A stretch of 24,453 bases of DNA from a virus. The notes below the pieces were generated by a model. That model made no database searches and had not been told where the DNA came from. It saw nothing but the letters and a program-made list of their open reading frames with translations. The stretch covers positions 1 to 24,453 of IMG/VR virus record IMGVR_UViG_3300044621_001901; one strand, 5' to 3'. Position 1 is the stretch's first letter. Every line of letters starts with the position of its first letter. Positions 1,948 through 24,289 of the stretch are shown in pieces. The position numbers and the translations under genes are program-made.

Positions 1948-3408
1948 CTACTCGATCGTTCTTTTGGCGATTTCTTTCGTCCTGGTGTAAGGCCCCGGAA
2001 CGCTCGCCGACAGGAACCGGCCCTCGGCCCCTGCTCGTAGCTTAGCGATCGCCTCGGGTGCTTGCTTGGCGACCGGTACGATATACGCCGCCGCTTCGTT
2101 GAGCGTGATCGAAAGGGAATCTGCGATCTCGCAGCACGCTTCGATCTCGGCCCCGGTCCATTCGTTTTCCGTCAGCCGAGCAATCAGCTTCGTGTCGGTG
2201 TGTCCGAACTTTGCAGCGTAGATCTTCCAGATCGCTGTTCGTTCTTCCAGGTCCGGTAGGTCGAAGAACCAAGTCCCGAGCTTGAACCGTCGCTTCAATT
2301 CCGGTGGCAGGTCCGTCAGGCTGTTGCAGGTCGCAATCCAAAGGGTCTCGCCGCCGCTGATCGCATCGATCACCTTCAGCGCCTCGCGGATCTGTGCTTC
2401 GGACTGTCCGACCAGTGAGCCCTTCGTGCCTCCCAGGTCGAGTTGGATCGTTGGGATTCCACCTTCGGAACCAGCCGCCTTCGCTACAGCCGACTTCGCA
2501 GCCCCAGGAGGACCGACCAGGATCGTACCGGTCGCCCTTCGATCCTGCATCCAGGACAACAGTTGGCCTAGTTGATCTTGCGATACCCCGCTGGAGTCCG
2601 AACCCGCAGCTCCGAGGCACTTTTCGATCTCGTCGACGAAGACGATCGCCTTGGGTTTTGCCTTGCCTTTGAGGACCGACCGCATGAATGTCTTGTAGGC
2701 ACCGCAGCCTCCGATCTTGTCGAATCCCCCCTGCTGGGTGACCACTCGCAGCCCCGGTGTCTGATCGATCTTCTTTCGCTTCGATTCCCACAGTTGGTCG
2801 ACTTCGAGCCCTTCGGTCTTGCTCATCGCCAACGATGCCAGATTCTCCGCACAGAACGCCGTGACTCCGATCGCTGCATTCGCCCCGCTCTCGATCGTCT
2901 CTTTGCTTGCGTCCGCCTGCCCCCACTCGCAAACCGTCGAGATAATTTCCCGCAGTTGCTCTTGGTTCGGCAGGGGGTCGTCGAACTGGACAACGTCGTG
3001 AATCAGCTCCGGTGGCAGGGTCGCAACACCGAGCAGCACCAGGGTCTTCTTCGAGGCCTTGAAATCGTCTCGCAGATTCCAGATCGCTTGGATCGCTCGT
3101 GGATCCTCAAGAAACAGGTGAGCGTTGCAGATGATCACCGCTTGGCGGTTGGCCAGCTCTCCAAGGTCAGACAGGAAATTGACCAGCGAACCTTGATAAT
3201 CCTGTTGGGGGAGTCCGGCCAGTGCGTCGGTCGCTCGCTGATCGTCTTTCGTGGTTCTGGCCCCTCGGACCACATCCCAAACGATGACCCCGACCGGATC
3301 GGCGAAATCTGCGAACTGCTCGCGGATCGTTTTGATCGTCGCCGCTGGGTCGCCCGTCGTCACAGAAACCAAAGGAACGCCAGCTCGAAATGCTCTTGAA
3401 ACCTGCAT
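1948..3408 (-). CDS. Ycf46-like AAA+ ATPase with Walker B segment placed before Walker A
   Basis: The start chosen is the ATG at 3408 (MQVSRAFRAG) with GAGGTGG just upstream; longer starts would cross the regulatory palindrome. The 486-residue protein has a Ycf46-type N-terminal half (TTGDPAATIKTIREQF, then VIVWDVVRG, then a VLLGVATLPPEL strand) and a C-terminal AAA+ core. A Walker B-like IVFVDEIEK is at about 255-263, followed by SGVSQDQLGQLLSWMQD. Only then comes the P-loop GPPGAAKS at 299-306, followed by GSLVGQSEAQIREAL, a sensor-1 IATCN (358-362) and the LPPELKRRF arginine-finger region. In canonical AAA+ proteins Walker A precedes Walker B. The P-loop also has Ala where Gly normally precedes Lys. 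Probable ATP-driven remodelling factor; its substrate is unknown. Confidence 0.88.
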   Translation of the reverse strand: MQVSRAFRAGVPLVSVTTGDPAATIKTIREQFADFADPVGVIVWDVVRGARTTKDDQRATDALAGLPQQDYQGSLVNFLSDLGELANRQAVIICNAHLFLEDPRAIQAIWNLRDDFKASKKTLVLLGVATLPPELIHDVVQFDDPLPNQEQLREIISTVCEWGQADASKETIESGANAAIGVTAFCAENLASLAMSKTEGLEVDQLWESKRKKIDQTPGLRVVTQQGGFDKIGGCGAYKTFMRSVLKGKAKPKAIVFVDEIEKCLGAAGSDSSGVSQDQLGQLLSWMQDRRATGTILVGPPGAAKSAVAKAAGSEGGIPTIQLDLGGTKGSLVGQSEAQIREALKVIDAISGGETLWIATCNSLTDLPPELKRRFKLGTWFFDLPDLEERTAIWKIYAAKFGHTDTKLIARLTENEWTGAEIEACCEIADSLSITLNEAAAYIVPVAKQAPEAIAKLRAGAEGRFLSASVPGPYTRTKEIAKRTIE

Positions 3409-3435
3409 AGTCCCACCTCTTTGAGTGAATGAATC

Positions 3436-3451
3436 TTGGAAACGTTTCCAA
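3436..3451. promoter_or_regulatory. Perfect palindrome TTGGAAACGTTTCCAA (operator candidate 2)
   Basis: Located 28 nt upstream of the AAA+ ATPase start, with the same spacing to GGTGGCGTTA as candidate 1. Confidence 0.6.
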
Positions 3452-3456
3452 ACCTT

Positions 3457-3466
3457 TAACGCCACC
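3457..3466 (-). promoter_or_regulatory. Intergenic motif GGTGGCGTTA, copy c
   Basis: Lies between the CsrA-like gene and the AAA+ ATPase gene. It is followed after 5 nt by the perfect palindrome, with the same geometry as copy a. Confidence 0.5.
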
Positions 3467-3484
3467 GAAGCAAAAAAGGAAACG

Positions 3485-3682
3485 TCATTTTTTTACATTT
3501 TCAGGCAATCGCGGATCGCCCGGGTTTTTCTTGCGAATGAAATCCTCTCGCTCGATCGTCGCCCCGTTTGGGTTCTCGACCAGCAGCACCACCTTTCGCT
3601 CGCCGACGCTCTCGACTGTGACCCGGGTTGACCCGTCGATCCAGAAAACGTCCCCTCGCCATGCCTTGATTTTCAGGGCCAT
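3485..3682 (-). CDS. CsrA-like small RNA-binding protein
   Basis: The start chosen is the ATG at 3682 with AAAGGTG upstream; the frame is open to a TTG at 3712 but without a better signal. The 65-residue product (MALKIKAWRGDVFWIDG...) follows the CsrA strand pattern. TRVTVESVGERKVVLLVENP aligns with the ITVTILGV...VRIGINAP core, and ATIEREDFIRKK aligns with AVHREEIYERI. The arginine equivalent to CsrA Arg44 (IER) is kept, while the N-terminal LTR RNA-binding motif is not. CsrA proteins are about 61 residues and control mRNA translation by binding GGA motifs. Here it could regulate phage or host translation, or have a diverged target. The call rests on pattern only. Confidence 0.65.
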   Translation of the reverse strand: MALKIKAWRGDVFWIDGSTRVTVESVGERKVVLLVENPNGATIEREDFIRKKNPGDPRLPENVKK

Positions 3683-3701
3683 GTTGCACCTTTGTTGCTG
3701 A

Positions 3702-3965
3702 TTACTTGCCAAGAATTGCCGAGTTGCTTGCTGCGATCTCTCGCTGCTTCTCGGTCAGGAAAAACCCGCTGACGATCCCCAAGCATCGATCATCGGCATC
3801 AGATTGCCGAGCGTGCCAGACGGAATCAAACACCCCGTAGACTTGATCCACGGTCACATAGACCATCCCCTCGGTGAGCAAGACCTGTTCGAGGACTTCG
3901 CTTGGCATCTGCAAGTCGCAGAACTGGAAGCCTTCGGAGTCGGTCGTCACGTTCAATTCAGCCAT
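3702..3965 (-). CDS. Hypothetical small protein
   Basis: This 87-residue acidic protein starts MAELNVTTDSEGFQFCD. Its ATG follows an AGGAG ribosome binding site with 7-nt spacing. The binding site lies in a 14-bp leader (CTCTAAGCAGGAGA) shared with the next two upstream genes. A strand-rich middle (GMVYVTVDQVYGVFDSVWH) is followed by a helical C-terminus. I do not recognise it. Context suggests an early-expressed phage accessory or host-interaction protein. Confidence 0.7.
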   Translation of the reverse strand: MAELNVTTDSEGFQFCDLQMPSEVLEQVLLTEGMVYVTVDQVYGVFDSVWHARQSDADDRCLGIVSGFFLTEKQREIAASNSAILGK

Positions 3966-3971
3966 CGTAAA

Positions 3972-3985
3972 TCTCCTGCTTAGAG
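3972..3985 (-). repeat. Shared leader/RBS repeat, copy 1
   Basis: CTCTAAGCAGGAGA on the minus strand, just upstream of the gene at 3702-3965. It contains the ribosome binding site and is identical to copy 2. Confidence 0.7.
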
Positions 3986-4022
3986 TGAAAGAACCGGAGC
4001 CGACCCGGAAACGGCTGGGGGG

Positions 4023-4262
4023 TTACTTGCCGAAGAGGTGGCTAAAACCCCAGAATGCAATCGCTCGGCTCTTGATCTTGGCCTGTGTCCTGGTTGCGAT
4101 ACTGTGGCATGCGGTGTAGTGACCCGCGACGGAATCCCAAGCTAGCACTCGGCCATTTTTTCCGGGCTCGACAAGGATCTTGTTTTCGCGGACGCCCTCA
4201 CCCGAGAAGGCCTTGCATCGAATGGTCAGCTCTACGTCTTGGCTTGCTGTTACTGTTGCCAT
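4023..4262 (-). CDS. Hypothetical small protein
   Basis: The 79-residue product starts MATVTASQDVELTIRCKAF. The middle carries VLAWDSVAGHYTACHSI and the C-terminus is basic and aromatic. The ATG lies 10 nt after AGGAG, in the same CTCTAAGCAGGAGA leader found before the two neighbouring small genes. No family is recognised. Pre-early phage proteins often look like this, but no function can be assigned. Confidence 0.7.
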   Translation of the reverse strand: MATVTASQDVELTIRCKAFSGEGVRENKILVEPGKNGRVLAWDSVAGHYTACHSIATRTQAKIKSRAIAFWGFSHLFGK

Positions 4263-4271
4263 CTGTCATCG

Positions 4272-4285
4272 TCTCCTGCTTAGAG
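4272..4285 (-). repeat. Shared leader/RBS repeat, copy 2
   Basis: CTCTAAGCAGGAGA on the minus strand before the gene at 4023-4262. It is preceded, as in copy 1, by CA. Confidence 0.7.
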
Positions 4286-4324
4286 TGTTTGCGGGACCAA
4301 ACATTTCGGCCCCCATTATCAAGG

Positions 4325-4348
4325 GCCCAGTCCCCGGAGGAACTGGGC
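4325..4348. repeat. 7-bp inverted repeat (hairpin) between two small genes
   Basis: GCCCAGT at 4325-4331 pairs perfectly with ACTGGGC at 4342-4348 around a 10-nt loop. A T-rich stretch follows on the plus strand from about 4354. In leftward transcripts it has no U-tract, so it is more likely a processing or attenuation hairpin than a leftward terminator. Confidence 0.4.
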
Positions 4349-4368
4349 GCGACATTTTGTTTTTATTT

Positions 4369-4578
4369 TCACACGCCATCGATTAGGTCTTGATCGTGCA
4401 GGATTTGCTCGGTCGCGTCCCTGAGCATCGCCAGGATCATTTCGTCCCGCTCGCTCATCTTCGAGGCTTCTGCTGGCACTGATCTTGCCCGAGCTTGGAT
4501 TTGACCCAGCAGTTCGATCACTGCGGTTCGAGCGTACTCAGGATCTTGAACTGGACTCACTGAAAAAATAACCATCAT
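4369..4578 (-). CDS. Hypothetical small protein
   Basis: This 69-residue, mostly helical acidic protein starts MMVIFSVSPVQDPEYART. The first of two consecutive ATGs has AGGAG 5 nt upstream, in the variant leader CTCTAAGTAGGAGA. It is the first recognisable gene downstream of the repeat-rich non-coding region at 4.6-5.3 kb, so it probably heads the leftward operon. The family is unknown. Confidence 0.65.
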   Translation of the reverse strand: MMVIFSVSPVQDPEYARTAVIELLGQIQARARSVPAEASKMSERDEMILAMLRDATEQILHDQDLIDGV

Positions 4579-4582
4579 TCGA

Positions 4583-4596
4583 TCTCCTACTTAGAG
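4583..4596 (-). repeat. Shared leader/RBS repeat, copy 3
   Basis: CTCTAAGTAGGAGA on the minus strand before the gene at 4369-4578. It differs by one base from copies 1 and 2. Confidence 0.7.
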
Positions 4597-4686
4597 CTAC
4601 TTCAACAGCGGGTACTTCCCGCCACATCTATCTAGGCCCAATCCGGTCGAAAACAGGGCGCAAAATCTCGAAAAGTTTTTTGCCCT

Positions 4687-4707
4687 GCGTTTTCCCAGCG
4701 TTTTCCC
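4687..4707. repeat. Tandem direct repeat of GCGTTTTCCC
   Basis: Two 10-bp copies spaced one helical turn apart (11 bp), next to motif copy d. The spacing suggests cooperative protein binding. It could equally be an iteron-like element. Confidence 0.45.
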
Positions 4708-4718
4708 TGGCAATCTTA

Positions 4719-4728
4719 TAACGCCACC
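4719..4728 (-). promoter_or_regulatory. Intergenic motif GGTGGCGTTA, copy d
   Basis: Lies in the non-coding region upstream of the small-gene operon. It is followed by TATAAGATTG, giving a -10-like TATAAG, then by a tandem GGGAAAACGC repeat. It may be the operon promoter. Confidence 0.45.
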
Positions 4729-4808
4729 GTCCAGCAGAAAAAAAAGCAAGATTCCTTTTTTTAGCCGTTTTTTGGTTTTTTCGGCCCTGCGCGCGCCCGC
4801 CCTTTGTC

Positions 4809-4912
4809 CCAGGACACCAGCCCTGGACAGGTACAGCCAGCCAAATTGCAGCAGCGCCAGGGGCATGTTGACCCCCAGGGACTCGGATTCGATGCGTCTT
4901 TCGGTGTCCTGG
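4809..4912. repeat. Long-range 10-bp inverted repeat
   Basis: CCAGGACACC (4809-4818) and its exact reverse complement GGTGTCCTGG (4903-4912) lie 84 nt apart in non-coding DNA. Confidence 0.4.
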
Positions 4913-5150
4913 ACCGGGTTGTCAGGTTGGACAGAGCCCGGATTTAGCTACCACGCAAAAAATCCAATGCGGGGTTGCGAGCCCCTGCCAGTCGCCGGTC
5001 GAACCGGCTCGCCTCAGATTGCGTCCGAGACTATCCCTCTGCGGTATGGACCGCAGCCGCTAGCTCCCTGTCGGATCATTCGACGCACACACGCAGGCAG
5101 CACTTCCAAGAATTTTTTCATCCGAGTTTTGCCCCGATCTAGTTTATCGC

Positions 5151-5179
5151 TTGAAGCTGACAGATCACTTTGCTACAAT
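5151..5179 (+). promoter_or_regulatory. Near-consensus sigma70 promoter pointing right
   Basis: TTGAAG (5151-5156), a 17-nt spacer, then TACAAT (5174-5179) preceded by TGC, i.e. an extended -10. Initiation is expected at about 5185-5187. It is the only clear plus-strand transcription signal in the window and points into the structured segment, towards the 3' end of the glycosyltransferase gene. Confidence 0.6.
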
Positions 5180-5183
5180 TCTC

Positions 5184-5286
5184 GGTGCTGGTTGGTTGGT
5201 CTCGCAAAAAACCGCGCTTGAGCTCAGGGAAACCTGGGCTCTTGTCGTTTCAGCACCGAACGCCGTCGAGGGCTACCAACCCTCGC
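5184..5286 (+). ncRNA. Candidate structured non-coding RNA
   Basis: Directly after the plus-strand promoter the sequence can fold into three helices. An 8-bp long-range stem joins CGGTGCTG (5183-5190) to CAGCACCG (5251-5258). A 9-bp stem with one G-U pair, capped by a GAAA tetraloop, lies at 5220-5241. A 6-bp stem CGAGGG/CCCTCG with a 7-nt loop lies at 5267-5285. The segment GGTTGGT (5190-5196) can also pair with ACCAACC (5275-5281), which would give a pseudoknot or an alternative fold. No open frame with a start signal explains it. No U-tract follows, so the 3' end is uncertain. I do not recognise a known RNA family. Confidence 0.4.
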
Positions 5287-5292
5287 CAATCA

Positions 5293-6303
5293 CTATAACG
5301 CCACGTCAGGCGATTTTGGAACCCCGACCCCCCAGATATCTAGCATTTTTCTGGCATGGTGGATCTTATCCCGCTCCCCTGCAAAATGGACGATCCAGGC
5401 ATCCGGAGCCTTTGCCCAAAAATCCCGGAAGTAGAACTGCCAGTTCCACCGGTCGTCGAGGTCCGAGTACCCGAGCCGAAACGCCGACTGCTCGACGAAG
5501 GTTTGCTCTGAGGTTTGGCTTTGCGGGATGTTGTCCGGTGGCCTAGTCCAGACCGCAGCAGCCTCACGCCTCGCGTAGACCACGCCAGAGTTAAGCGATA
5601 CGTCGCGTTGCTCGAACTGTACCCCGATTGTCTCGGCGATCCATGTTCGCTCCTTGCCGAGCCAGTTGGTGCGATGCAGCGAATGGTTGTCGTTTGGAAG
5701 ATCGTTGTGCATCGCCAGCGACTCCGGACGACCAAAGATCGAGGGCGCAGAAGGGTTGACCAAGCAGTCCGCATCGAGAAAAAGCGTCTCGTCGTATTGC
5801 TCAACAAAGTGCTTCGCTCGGCATTTCTCAAAGCCCCACCACAACTCGGTTTCGTTGGTCAACTCAATAAAGTCAGCGTTGCATTTTTCTGCATAGGCTT
5901 TGAGGTTTGGCCTTGTGACCGCAAGCAGCTCGCGGAACTTCCGACCGGTCGCCACGGTCAGAACGCATCGAGTCTTGCCGGTAGCTGGTCGTTTGTGCCT
6001 CCAAAGGGTCAGGGCATCTTCCAAGGAAATCACAGGCTTTGCAAGGCTTGGCTTCTGGTTGACCTCGTTGTGCCACACGATCCCACGCTCAAACTGCGCG
6101 ACAGGATCCCCGAAGACCGCTGGAAACGTTTCCAAGATTTCGTCGAACGATACTTGGCATCCGCAGCCAACTTGAGGCACCCTGGCCCTCCACTTGGAGA
6201 ACCACGATTCGTCGTAAAGTTCCTGCAAGTGAAGCTCGGACCACAACGGCAGTGTGTTTGCTTTCGGAACCGATGGAGTCCCGCCGATTTTTATCAAGAC
6301 CAC
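5293..6303 (-). CDS. Glycosyltransferase (DxD, GT-A/GT8-like) with Cys/His N-terminal domain
   Basis: The start chosen is the GTG at 6303 with GGAGG 5 nt upstream and a 10-bp overlap with the previous gene; an ATG at 6345 is the alternative. The 336-residue product has a GT-A-type C-terminal half: CVLTVATGRKF, then TLFLDADCLV with the DxD at about 177-179, LNSGVVYARR at about 237, and IVHFAGE at about 306. The first 110 residues contain a VPQVGCGCQVSF motif and WHNEVN with downstream KPVISLEDA. This faintly resembles the Cys motif plus HN-x-VN motif of Erv/Alr-type domains. It probably transfers a sugar to a virion protein or host glycan. It is the last gene of the late block and contains a palindrome copy. 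Confidence 0.75.
   Translation of the reverse strand: MVLIKIGGTPSVPKANTLPLWSELHLQELYDESWFSKWRARVPQVGCGCQVSFDEILETFPAVFGDPVAQFERGIVWHNEVNQKPSLAKPVISLEDALTLWRHKRPATGKTRCVLTVATGRKFRELLAVTRPNLKAYAEKCNADFIELTNETELWWGFEKCRAKHFVEQYDETLFLDADCLVNPSAPSIFGRPESLAMHNDLPNDNHSLHRTNWLGKERTWIAETIGVQFEQRDVSLNSGVVYARREAAAVWTRPPDNIPQSQTSEQTFVEQSAFRLGYSDLDDRWNWQFYFRDFWAKAPDAWIVHFAGERDKIHHARKMLDIWGVGVPKSPDVAL
5296..5305 (-). promoter_or_regulatory. Motif variant CGTGGCGTTA, copy e
   Basis: This copy overlaps the last codons of the glycosyltransferase gene (its TAG stop follows directly). It differs from copies a-d at the first base of the 10-mer. Confidence 0.35.
6121..6134. repeat. Palindrome TGGAAACGTTTCCA inside the glycosyltransferase gene
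   Basis: The 14-bp core is intact and encodes part of ILETFP. No GGTGGCGTTA lies beside it. It could act as an intragenic (stoperator-like) binding site. Confidence 0.5.
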
Positions 6304-16082: not shown

Positions 16083-16400
16083 TCACTCAGGACGACCGTA
16101 AACCGGGATGCTGTCGCGCAGGTGCAGAACCTTCTCCCCAGGTGCCGGGAATCGATCGCTCGGGACTGCCGAACTTTGGACCTGGAAGCAAGCCTCGAAA
16201 AGCTTGATTGCTTCCTGTTCGGTATCGCAGACGGCAAGCCGCCCGTAGACGATCCACACTCCATCGATTGTGGCCTTGGTTTCTGTCTGTTCAGCGGGAG
16301 CAAGACCTGTTTCGATCGTCCCCGATACCTCGATGACAGGCTCAGGTTTTGGAAACGTTTCCAAGATCGGTTCTGTTTTCTCAACGTTTTCATTGGTCAT
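16083..16400 (-). CDS. Hypothetical protein of the neck/tail block
   Basis: This 105-residue protein starts MTNENVEKTEPILETFPKPEP; its ATG overlaps the upstream stop (ATGA). An acidic, Pro/Glu/Thr-rich, probably disordered first 45 residues precede a small alpha/beta part (DGVWIVYGRLAVCDTEQEAIKLFEA). The disordered part contains a full copy of the 16-bp palindrome (16349-16364). The family is unknown. Confidence 0.65.
   Translation of the reverse strand: MTNENVEKTEPILETFPKPEPVIEVSGTIETGLAPAEQTETKATIDGVWIVYGRLAVCDTEQEAIKLFEACFQVQSSAVPSDRFPAPGEKVLHLRDSIPVYGRPE
16349..16364. repeat. Palindrome TTGGAAACGTTTCCAA inside a tail-region gene
   Basis: The full 16-bp palindrome lies inside the gene at 16083-16400 and, as at 6121, encodes ILETFP in an otherwise unrelated protein. 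Confidence 0.5.
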
Positions 16401-20255: not shown

Positions 20256-20737
20256 TATGCACCCCTCGCGATTTCTGCCCGAGCGTTTTGAATTCTACCG
20301 CGACCGACCTCGCCGATGCCAACGTGGTCGACCCATCGAACCGTTTCAAATTTCAAGGAATTCAGTTCTTGAGCTATGGTCGTTGAGATGTATGTTGGGT
20401 TTGTCGCGATCCCCTGGCGACGATATCGAAGCAGATCGCCAATCATTTCAATAGATGTTTCTGATTCCAAATCGGCATACTCGCTGTCGTTTGCTGCGTT
20501 GTCGATCCATCCTTTAATGTTAATGAGCGCGACTCGATGCTCTAATGGCAAAGCTAAGTTGTCGATGTCGACGATTATGTGACCATAGAAACCTCTAGTG
20601 GTCGCAACTTTCAGGATCTCTTTTCGAGGAACCAGTCTTACCTTTGTGACGGTAAGCAGACTTATTGCATCTTCCGCCTCTTGGTCGCTTAGCCCATGAA
20701 ATTGAGGCTCCTTGAGCTTTTCAGTTAGTGCATCCAT
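20255..20737 (-). CDS. Hypothetical protein
   Basis: This 160-residue helical protein starts MDALTEKLKEPQFHGLSDQE. GAGG lies 7 nt upstream of the ATG, and the gene overlaps the desaturase stop by 17 bp. LSDQEAEDAISLLTVTKV is a helix-turn pattern seen in several phage proteins of unknown function near the head genes. The end (GRGRIQNARAEIARGA) is basic. Function unknown. Confidence 0.65.
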   Translation of the reverse strand: MDALTEKLKEPQFHGLSDQEAEDAISLLTVTKVRLVPRKEILKVATTRGFYGHIIVDIDNLALPLEHRVALINIKGWIDNAANDSEYADLESETSIEMIGDLLRYRRQGIATNPTYISTTIAQELNSLKFETVRWVDHVGIGEVGRGRIQNARAEIARGA

Positions 20738-21266
20738 TTTGCGTCCTCGGGTTTATGCCTGTCACAAAGGAAATTATGTCTTCTAGTGCCCGCCAAAAAC
20801 CAATCGCATCGAGCAAAGGATTCAGGATCGGAGTCATTACGCAGTACCGAACGTGAAACGGATTTCGGTGGTGCTCGGCGTGATGCTTCGGACTCTGAAA
20901 GACACAAGCTCTTTGCAGGAACCTTACCAGCAATCCGTTTGTAGGCTTACTGTGCGACCAAGCGTGAACTTGGTTCGCCTGAGATAAAAACAGCATCGAC
21001 AGCCATCCGTTTCGCAGTGGCTCGAACGATAAGCAGATTGCCATCGCGACAAAACTCGGAACGATTGTTGTGTAGTTCCTCTGCCAATAGCTACCCTTCA
21101 AGAACGCATATTGATCCGCATGGTGGAGCTGGTTCGGACCACCGATCAGTCGCCCTAAAATCGAATCGGAATGCGACAAGTAGGTATCCTCCCACCAGTG
21201 GAACAATCCCGCGATGAAATCGGCAGCAAGCCAGGAAACAACGATATAGACCAATAGGTTTACCAT
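20721..21266 (-). CDS. Kua/CarF/PEDS1-type lipid (plasmanylethanolamine) desaturase homologue
   Basis: This 181-residue membrane protein carries the histidine motifs of the Kua/TMEM189 (CarF) family: DFIAGLFHWWEDT (D16, H23), NQLHHADQ (H48, H49), HAWSH (H101, H105) and PKHHAEHHRNPFHVRYC (H128, H129, H132, H133). The typical end FWRALEDIISFVTGINPRTQN follows. Hydrophobic segments lie at about 3-22, 66-82 and 86-98. The family uses di-iron chemistry to make the vinyl-ether bond of plasmalogens from alkyl-ether phospholipids. It is slightly shorter than cellular homologues. No strong ribosome binding site is seen. It lies between small membrane proteins and virion genes; probably an auxiliary metabolic gene. 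Confidence 0.85.
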   Translation of the reverse strand: MVNLLVYIVVSWLAADFIAGLFHWWEDTYLSHSDSILGRLIGGPNQLHHADQYAFLKGSYWQRNYTTIVPSFVAMAICLSFEPLRNGWLSMLFLSQANQVHAWSHSKPTNGLLVRFLQRACVFQSPKHHAEHHRNPFHVRYCVMTPILNPLLDAIGFWRALEDIISFVTGINPRTQNGCTN

Positions 21267-23368: not shown

Positions 23369-24289
23369 TTAAACAAAAGTCAGTTGGTCATTGACGAGCG
23401 CCGCAACGATGTCTGAGGTCTTCGGAATGCCGAGCCCCCAAAACGGATCGTGCCCAGGGTCGCCTTTATCTTGCGTGTACAGCTTCAAAAACTCTCGGAC
23501 TGCATCCACGCCGGTAAACGCTGCATTGCCTTCTCGGCGCATCAATTCGATTATCAGACAGAACAAGCCAGCAGCGAACGGGGTCGCCATGCTTGTACCG
23601 GACATCCCACGGAATCCGTTTGTCGTTGAGCACGAAATAATGTCCTGCCCTGGACAGCAGATATCGAGCTCTCGCCCCCCCGATGAGAACGAAGCTCGTT
23701 GACCGTCTTGACGATACGCACCGATGGAAAGTCCATCGAGATACCTCGCAGGATAGCCGATTGTGTTTTGTCGACCAGTGAACCCCGAGTTACCAGCAGC
23801 CGAGACCGTGATCGCCCCTTTGCCCCAAGCGTACTTCAAAGCTTCGCGCGTCGGCTCGTAAGGACTGCTAGATCCGAGCGACATCGAAATGACGTCAGCC
23901 CCTTTGTCCGCAGCCCAGCGAATGCCCTTTGCGATTCCGTCTGAGGATCCGCTGCCACCATTCGACAACACCTTTCCGACCATCAGCGAGGCACCAGGAG
24001 CGACTCCGATGCCATCGCGACCAAGTACCGTACCCGCGCAGTGTGTTCCGTGACCGTTGCCGTCCTTCCAATTTTGACCCTGGACGAACGATTCTGCATG
24101 GACTGGCTCTGGTAGTAAATCGTGAGGGTTGCAACCAGTATCCAAGACCGCCGCAACGATTCCCTTTCCAGTGACCTTTTTCCATATCGGCTCAAACGTC
24201 GCCTTCGGAAGATGCCATAGGTCTCCCGGTGCTGCGTACGTCTCGACGTCCGAAACCAAGTCTGGTGGCAAAAATACTGGTGGGCTCAT
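23369..24289 (-). CDS. Subtilisin-family (S8) serine protease
   Basis: This 306-residue protein has the complete S8 catalytic set: Asp50 (VAAVLDTGCN), His80 (DGNGHGTHCAGT), oxyanion Asn167 (VSAAGNSG) and Ser233 (GMSGTSMATP). There is no signal peptide and only about 35 residues before the catalytic core, too short for a usual prodomain. It would therefore be cytoplasmic or virion-packaged rather than secreted by the Sec route. Roles could include processing of virion proteins or attack on host proteins; a prohead-protease role is unproven. The start ATG follows AAGAGCC weakly, and the upstream gene ends 8 nt away. Confidence 0.85.
   Translation of the reverse strand: MSPPVFLPPDLVSDVETYAAPGDLWHLPKATFEPIWKKVTGKGIVAAVLDTGCNPHDLLPEPVHAESFVQGQNWKDGNGHGTHCAGTVLGRDGIGVAPGASLMVGKVLSNGGSGSSDGIAKGIRWAADKGADVISMSLGSSSPYEPTREALKYAWGKGAITVSAAGNSGFTGRQNTIGYPARYLDGLSIGAYRQDGQRASFSSGGRELDICCPGQDIISCSTTNGFRGMSGTSMATPFAAGLFCLIIELMRREGNAAFTGVDAVREFLKLYTQDKGDPGHDPFWGLGIPKTSDIVAALVNDQLTFV

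Follow-up and report, generated by a model that had tools for sequence, protein, structure and literature searches.

A phage Ycf46-like AAA+ ATPase with Walker B preceding Walker A, an order probably reached by a single non-circular transposition within its catalytic domain

We analyzed a window of 24,453 bases, an IMG/VR virus record with tail and connector genes, in which the gene at 1948-3408 (minus strand) encodes a Ycf46-like AAA+ ATPase that carries its Walker B motif ahead of Walker A. This protein is very probably a tandem AAA+ protein of the Ycf46/p97 type, with a degenerate first domain and a catalytic second domain that was rethreaded by a single non-circular transposition and is probably active. 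At the scale of the family, we consider it likely, with somewhat less confidence, that these proteins form a natural, active AAA+ lineage of single origin with a core of strand order beta 3-1-2-4-5, the first in which Walker B stands before Walker A, and that this lineage has become dispersed among uncultured phages and mobile elements.

The open reading frame spans 1948-3465 on the minus strand, a frame of 505 codons that is open back to a GTG at 3465. Since the relatives begin at the ATG at 3408 (codon 20 of this frame), we chose it as the start of the gene, and the AAA+ protein most likely comprises 486 residues, numbered here from this ATG. Along the chain, the motifs come in the order IVFVDEIEK (255-263), LGQLLSWMQD (from 284), GPPGAAKS (299-306), LVGQSE (332-337), ATCN (359-362) and RRF (373-375). 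This order confirms the initial annotation of the sequence, which had placed the Walker B stretch IVFVDEIEK and the helix following it ahead of the P-loop, and whose numbering of Lys305 and Glu260 agrees with ours. Residues 1-247 (2668-3408, minus strand) hold the N-terminal domain with its helical part, and helix alpha0, in canonical order, as indicated by structure alignment, secondary structure and a tree of their own; in alignment, they correspond to the D1 part of p97/Cdc48, and they are without a Walker A lysine motif. Within this region, GGCGAYKT (233-240) was considered as a second P-loop and rejected, its Lys and Thr lying within helix alpha0 and the pattern being lost in relatives.

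The Pfam AAA profile (PF00004) matched the window protein with 57 bits against a cut-off of 21.2, in two separate stretches, and it matched all 80 non-redundant permuted members, each of which has Walker A, Walker B, sensor 1 and the arginines. Similarly, the PHROG 8638 model fitted a canonical Mycobacterium phage protein from end to end and the window protein in four stretches. The predicted model has the alpha/beta core and the lid, and homology to the canonical members extends over the full length, the N-terminal domain included. By homology and fold, the permuted protein is an AAA+ protein, and it departs from the family only in the defining chain order: instead of Walker A, Walker B and sensor 1 (beta1-2-3-4-5), we found Walker B, Walker A and sensor 1 in 177 distinct sequences. 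"Ycf46-like" is the name given to the canonical set, which holds no chloroplast or cyanobacterial record named Ycf46; the link to Ycf46 is backed by the DUF1257 (Ycf35) and DUF2997 neighbours described below.

The rearrangement was delimited by aligning each block of the window protein separately with the canonical homologue of Blastopirellula marina (L180). The moved block, residues 248-291 (2536-2667, minus strand), comprises beta3 with Walker B (IVFVDEIEK, 2620-2646, minus strand), the pore-loop-2 region and helix alpha3, and it matched L180 residues 312-354 with 25 of 40 positions identical (Z 17 against shuffles). The P-loop block, residues 292-352 (2353-2535, minus strand), comprises beta1, alpha1, beta2, the pore-loop-1 region and alpha2 and contains Walker A (GPPGAAKS, 2491-2514, minus strand); it matched L180 residues 257-313 with 31 of 57 identical (Z 26 against shuffles). 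On either side, residues 1-247 correspond to L180 46-245, and residues 353-486 (1951-2352, minus strand), with beta4 and sensor 1, the Arg-Arg pair (373-374), beta5 and the C-terminal lid, correspond to L180 362-477 (55 of 114 identical). A BLASTP comparison of the window protein with L180 gave complementary gaps of about 40 residues at both sites. The linkers are short: three residues separate alpha3 (end at 289) from beta1 (start at 293), and three separate alpha2 (351) from beta4 (355). A circular permutation joins the old termini and opens new ones in the domain; here, the N-terminal flank and the C-terminal lid are in place. Since only one internal unit moved and all else stayed where it was, the rearrangement is, on the evidence of these alignments, the transposition of a single beta-alpha unit within the chain and not a circular permutation. 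The earlier proposal that the beta3-alpha3 unit had been cut out and put before beta1, with the core otherwise intact, is thus supported by block homology, and also by the 177 sequences, the invariant catalytic residues, the predicted structure and the couplings.

Conservation was assessed in the 80 non-redundant permuted members, whose mutual identity is below 72%. Eleven residues were invariant in this set, namely D259, E260 and K263 in Walker B, G299, G302 and K305 in Walker A, G334, R341, N362 of sensor 1, R373 and R374. The column before the Walker A lysine holds Ala in 38 members, Gly in 35 and Ser in 7. The initial annotation had pointed to Ala in place of Gly at this position of the window protein, which is true, but the composition of the column shows no defect of the family. 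Synonymous codon changes prevail among close relatives: in comparison with L003, we counted 156 synonymous against 38 non-synonymous and, judging from these counts, the permuted AAA gene is under purifying selection.

Nucleotide handling may differ in this family, given Ala or Ser at the glycine of the Walker A GK in 45 of the 80 members. The same substitutions would suit a second domain folded as proposed but serving in nucleotide binding or regulation, with little or no hydrolysis, and the degenerate first domain indicates a lineage that tolerates the loss of activity. We consider this alternative unlikely, as all 80 members keep the Walker B Glu, the sensor-1 Asn, the Walker A Lys and the two arginines without exception, which would be unexpected were hydrolysis lost, and the classical GK is kept in 35 of 80. 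In the hydrolysing second domain that we favor, the active site would be composed of Walker A K305, Walker B D259 and E260 and sensor-1 N362; R373 and R374 are candidates for arginine fingers acting on the neighbouring subunit.

An AlphaFold2 monomer model of the window protein, run on an 80-row alignment of permuted sequences only, reached a mean pLDDT of 94.3 and a pTM of 0.88, with a possible bias of AlphaFold towards known AAA+ cores. The second domain of this model contains exactly five strands (254-258, 293-298, 320-323, 355-361 and 379-381), which have one-to-one counterparts in the canonical model (pLDDT 80; 316-320, 257-262, 283-286, 359-365 and 383-387), and the transposed unit is made of the strand 254-258 and the helices 261-270 and 275-289. 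The comparison with AAA+ cores that had been suggested from the sequence therefore yielded the five expected strands, in the chain order 3-1-2-4-5, in a confident model set against the canonical one. An acidic strand after the P-loop that would serve as Walker B in place of IVFVDEIEK was not found: D324, the candidate substitute, was rejected, as it ends beta2 and has its counterpart in D287 of the canonical homologue.

The whole permuted model aligned with p97/Cdc48 D1-D2 chains, for example 8ub4_A (Z 18.7, rmsd 3.9, 394 residues aligned; VIA-align). Both fold aligners appear to be chain-ordered and cannot display a permutation directly; therefore, we gauged the permutation by the loss of aligned residues relative to the canonical homologue. 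Against p97 D2 (6g2v), the chain-order alignment covered 202 residues for the permuted protein (Z 16.7, rmsd 2.6) and 234 for the canonical one (Z 23.1, rmsd 2.5); the corresponding numbers were 214 versus 257 for Vps4 (6bmf) and 203 versus 240 for 4d82. At equal rmsd, the permuted model loses 32-43 aligned residues, roughly as many as the moved unit contains.

Mean-field couplings were computed from 178 permuted rows (effective number 129), with phylogenetic noise included. The couplings A254-S351 and K253-G352, which link the beginning of beta3 with the end of alpha2, were in the top 0.12% of comparable windows; these pairs (254-351 and 253-352) are neighbours in the canonical chain and about 100 residues apart in the permuted one. 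The alpha3-alpha2 couplings were in the top 0.8%, beta3-beta4 alone only in the top 10%, and those between beta3 and beta1, now near in sequence, were at background (0.94). The couplings thus appear to connect the moved unit with the neighbours it has in canonical proteins, most strongly at the ancestral alpha2-beta3 junction, and we take them as supporting evidence because shared ancestry adds noise. Being blind to the difference between intra-chain and inter-chain contacts, they would also fit a moved unit that is swapped between subunits, with its Walker B completing the site of the neighbour. Such a swap is very improbable in view of the very short links from alpha3 to beta1 and from alpha2 to beta4, and of the confident monomer model, in which all five strands are predicted within one chain. 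Under the transposition that we propose, the chain would thread the sheet as 3-1-2-4-5 and not as 1-2-3-4-5, with the sheet 5-1-4-3-2 and the active site rebuilt within one subunit.

We then consider the distribution of the two orders in IMG/VR, GTDB genomes and annotated phages and plasmids. The permuted order was kept in at least 177 distinct sequences, which answers the search for homologues proposed with the original observation, and the canonical order was found in the 45 nearest non-permuted relatives. Among these 222 distinct sequences, no intermediates and no sequences with two Walker B units were found. In the profile scan of genome contigs, narrow peptide patterns were too specific and gave no match, and wider patterns gave 80 loci; a viral scan with the Tunturi_3 sequence alone gave no match. 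Permuted members were found in IMG/VR phages, in the cultured phage Tunturi_3 (PP885686, complete genome; protein XOB77284), at two loci on the complete chromosome of Nitrospira moscoviensis (NZ_CP011801), and in MAGs of Acidobacteria, Armatimonadota, Gemmatimonadota, Deltaproteobacteria, Planctomycetes and Patescibacteria. The canonical relatives come mainly from Planctomycete genome contigs, plasmids and Mycobacterium phages. Metagenomes are the source of most members, but a broken gene, or an artefact of sequencing, assembly or recombination, is refuted by the complete phage genome, the two chromosomal loci, the 177 distinct sequences reaching down to about 35% identity, and the excess of synonymous changes.

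Nitrospira moscoviensis also possesses a third relative, of canonical type, to which matches are split. At one of its permuted loci (L128), a ribonucleotide reductase gene comes before the AAA gene at 2982-5285, genes for primase and helicase come after it, and a TraG/TraD-like gene is close by; because of these neighbours, this locus probably lies in a mobile element. Two other loci were observed: a permuted relative at 2901-4555 of L041 extends over two overlapping frames, with an apparent frameshift near the P-loop, and the Streptococcus satellite phage Javan368 (L446, 2155-3732) carries a very distant, unannotated relative in canonical order.

When the permuted sequences were rearranged to canonical order for alignment, the tree required a single switch of order (SH-aLRT 100). 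The same holds for a tree restricted to the N-terminal domain, which is untouched by the transposition (123 rows, SH-aLRT 96). The canonical motif order is general among AAA+ proteins, and the direction from canonical to permuted was assumed for this reason. A unit of about 40 residues (beta3 and alpha3) would thus have moved once, in one ancestor, leaving its place between alpha2 and beta4 for one directly ahead of beta1. When the profile of the permuted set was reordered in silico, it matched 33 canonical relatives in a single stretch, with best-domain scores of 194-401 bits; in its natural, permuted order, it split on the same 33 relatives, with best-domain scores of 47-153 bits.

Three partner genes lie beside the AAA gene on the minus strand of the window. 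The genes at 496-897 and 314-490 encode a DUF1257 (Ycf35) protein (Pfam PF06868, E 1.7e-8) and a DUF2997 protein (PF11211, E 3.8e-16), respectively. The gene at 978-1883 is DUF3150-like, a transitive label, as it shares an iterative profile family with a plasmid protein called DUF3150 by Pfam and does not itself match a Pfam family. Near the permuted AAA gene, DUF3150-like genes were found at 111 of 124 loci, DUF1257 at 83 and DUF2997 at 80, counts that are limited by the ends of the loci. The three genes are also beside most canonical relatives, and DUF2997, ycf35 and the ferredoxin gene fed7 are kept together in cyanobacteria (PMC4284462). Further along the window, on the minus strand, we observed a Lipid_desat family protein (20721-21266; PF10520, E 3.9e-40), of a membrane lipid desaturase kind unexpected in a phage, and a subtilase family protease (23369-24289; Peptidase_S8, E 6.8e-46).

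A palindrome, GGAAACGTTTCC, occurs four times in the window, at 925-940, 3437-3452, 6121-6136 and 16350-16365, and takes the form TTGGAAACGTTTCCAA at three of the four places; this represents 8 strand matches against 0.04 expected in the window. Two copies fall within 52-nt repeats that precede the AAA gene and the DUF1257 gene. The repeat copy before the AAA gene (3431-3482) contains TTGGAAACGTTTCCAA, about 30 nt upstream of that gene. The palindrome is also present upstream of the AAA gene in the relatives L001-L003 and L006-L008, and it is possibly an operator common to this phage group.

We infer that the protein would assemble into a ring resembling that of p97. Beside a degenerate first domain, the permuted second domain would hydrolyse ATP and, via the pore loops, pull on a protein substrate for remodelling. 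Of the products of its gene module, the DUF3150-like protein would probably serve as adaptor, and those with DUF1257 and DUF2997 may act as substrate or cofactor partners.

The closest known systems are the canonical Ycf46-like proteins that belong to this module (Blastopirellula marina L180, the plasmid proteins L042-L045, Mycobacterium phage Catdawg gp97, PHROG 8638). They have in common with the permuted proteins the degenerate AAA-like N-terminal domain, the motifs, the lid and, in most, the DUF3150, DUF1257 and DUF2997 neighbours; by contrast, in them, as in every standard AAA+ protein, Walker A and alpha2 come before Walker B and alpha3. The p97/Cdc48/VCP, Drg1/AFG2 and Vps4 proteins of the classical AAA clade resemble the window protein in the AAA core, the pore-loop pattern and the structural match (Z 16-20), and p97 and Drg1 also in the tandem D1-D2 layout. 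However, they have the canonical order and no DUF1257/DUF2997 module, and D1 is active in p97. The motifs of P-loop NTPases are naturally reordered, with the fold preserved, in the circularly permuted TRAFAC GTPases YjeQ/RsgA and YlqF, where G4-G5 lie ahead of the P-loop and Walker B still follows Walker A. The window protein also reorders such motifs, but differently. Among phage proteins, the nearest precedent, a conserved fold permuted in a non-circular manner, is the BPP-1 major capsid protein (PMC3863775), which has the HK97 capsid fold and is no enzyme. In the open-access literature, we found no published AAA+ protein with a permuted order or with Walker B before Walker A; older or subscription papers may be missed by this search.

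The AAA+ core is among the most conserved and most studied folds, and family models, annotation and evolutionary classification all take its motif order for granted. The permuted family illustrates why a profile search breaks up such proteins or gives them too low a score. A large permuted family that keeps its catalytic residues, with canonical relatives extant and sometimes in the same genome (Nitrospira moscoviensis), offers a direct test of how far the motor depends on chain order, and the same pairing allows one to test how a fold is rethreaded without a dead intermediate. Overall, because at least 177 phage and bacterial proteins keep the rearranged order with every catalytic residue intact, this family looks like a real alternative threading of a very common molecular motor.
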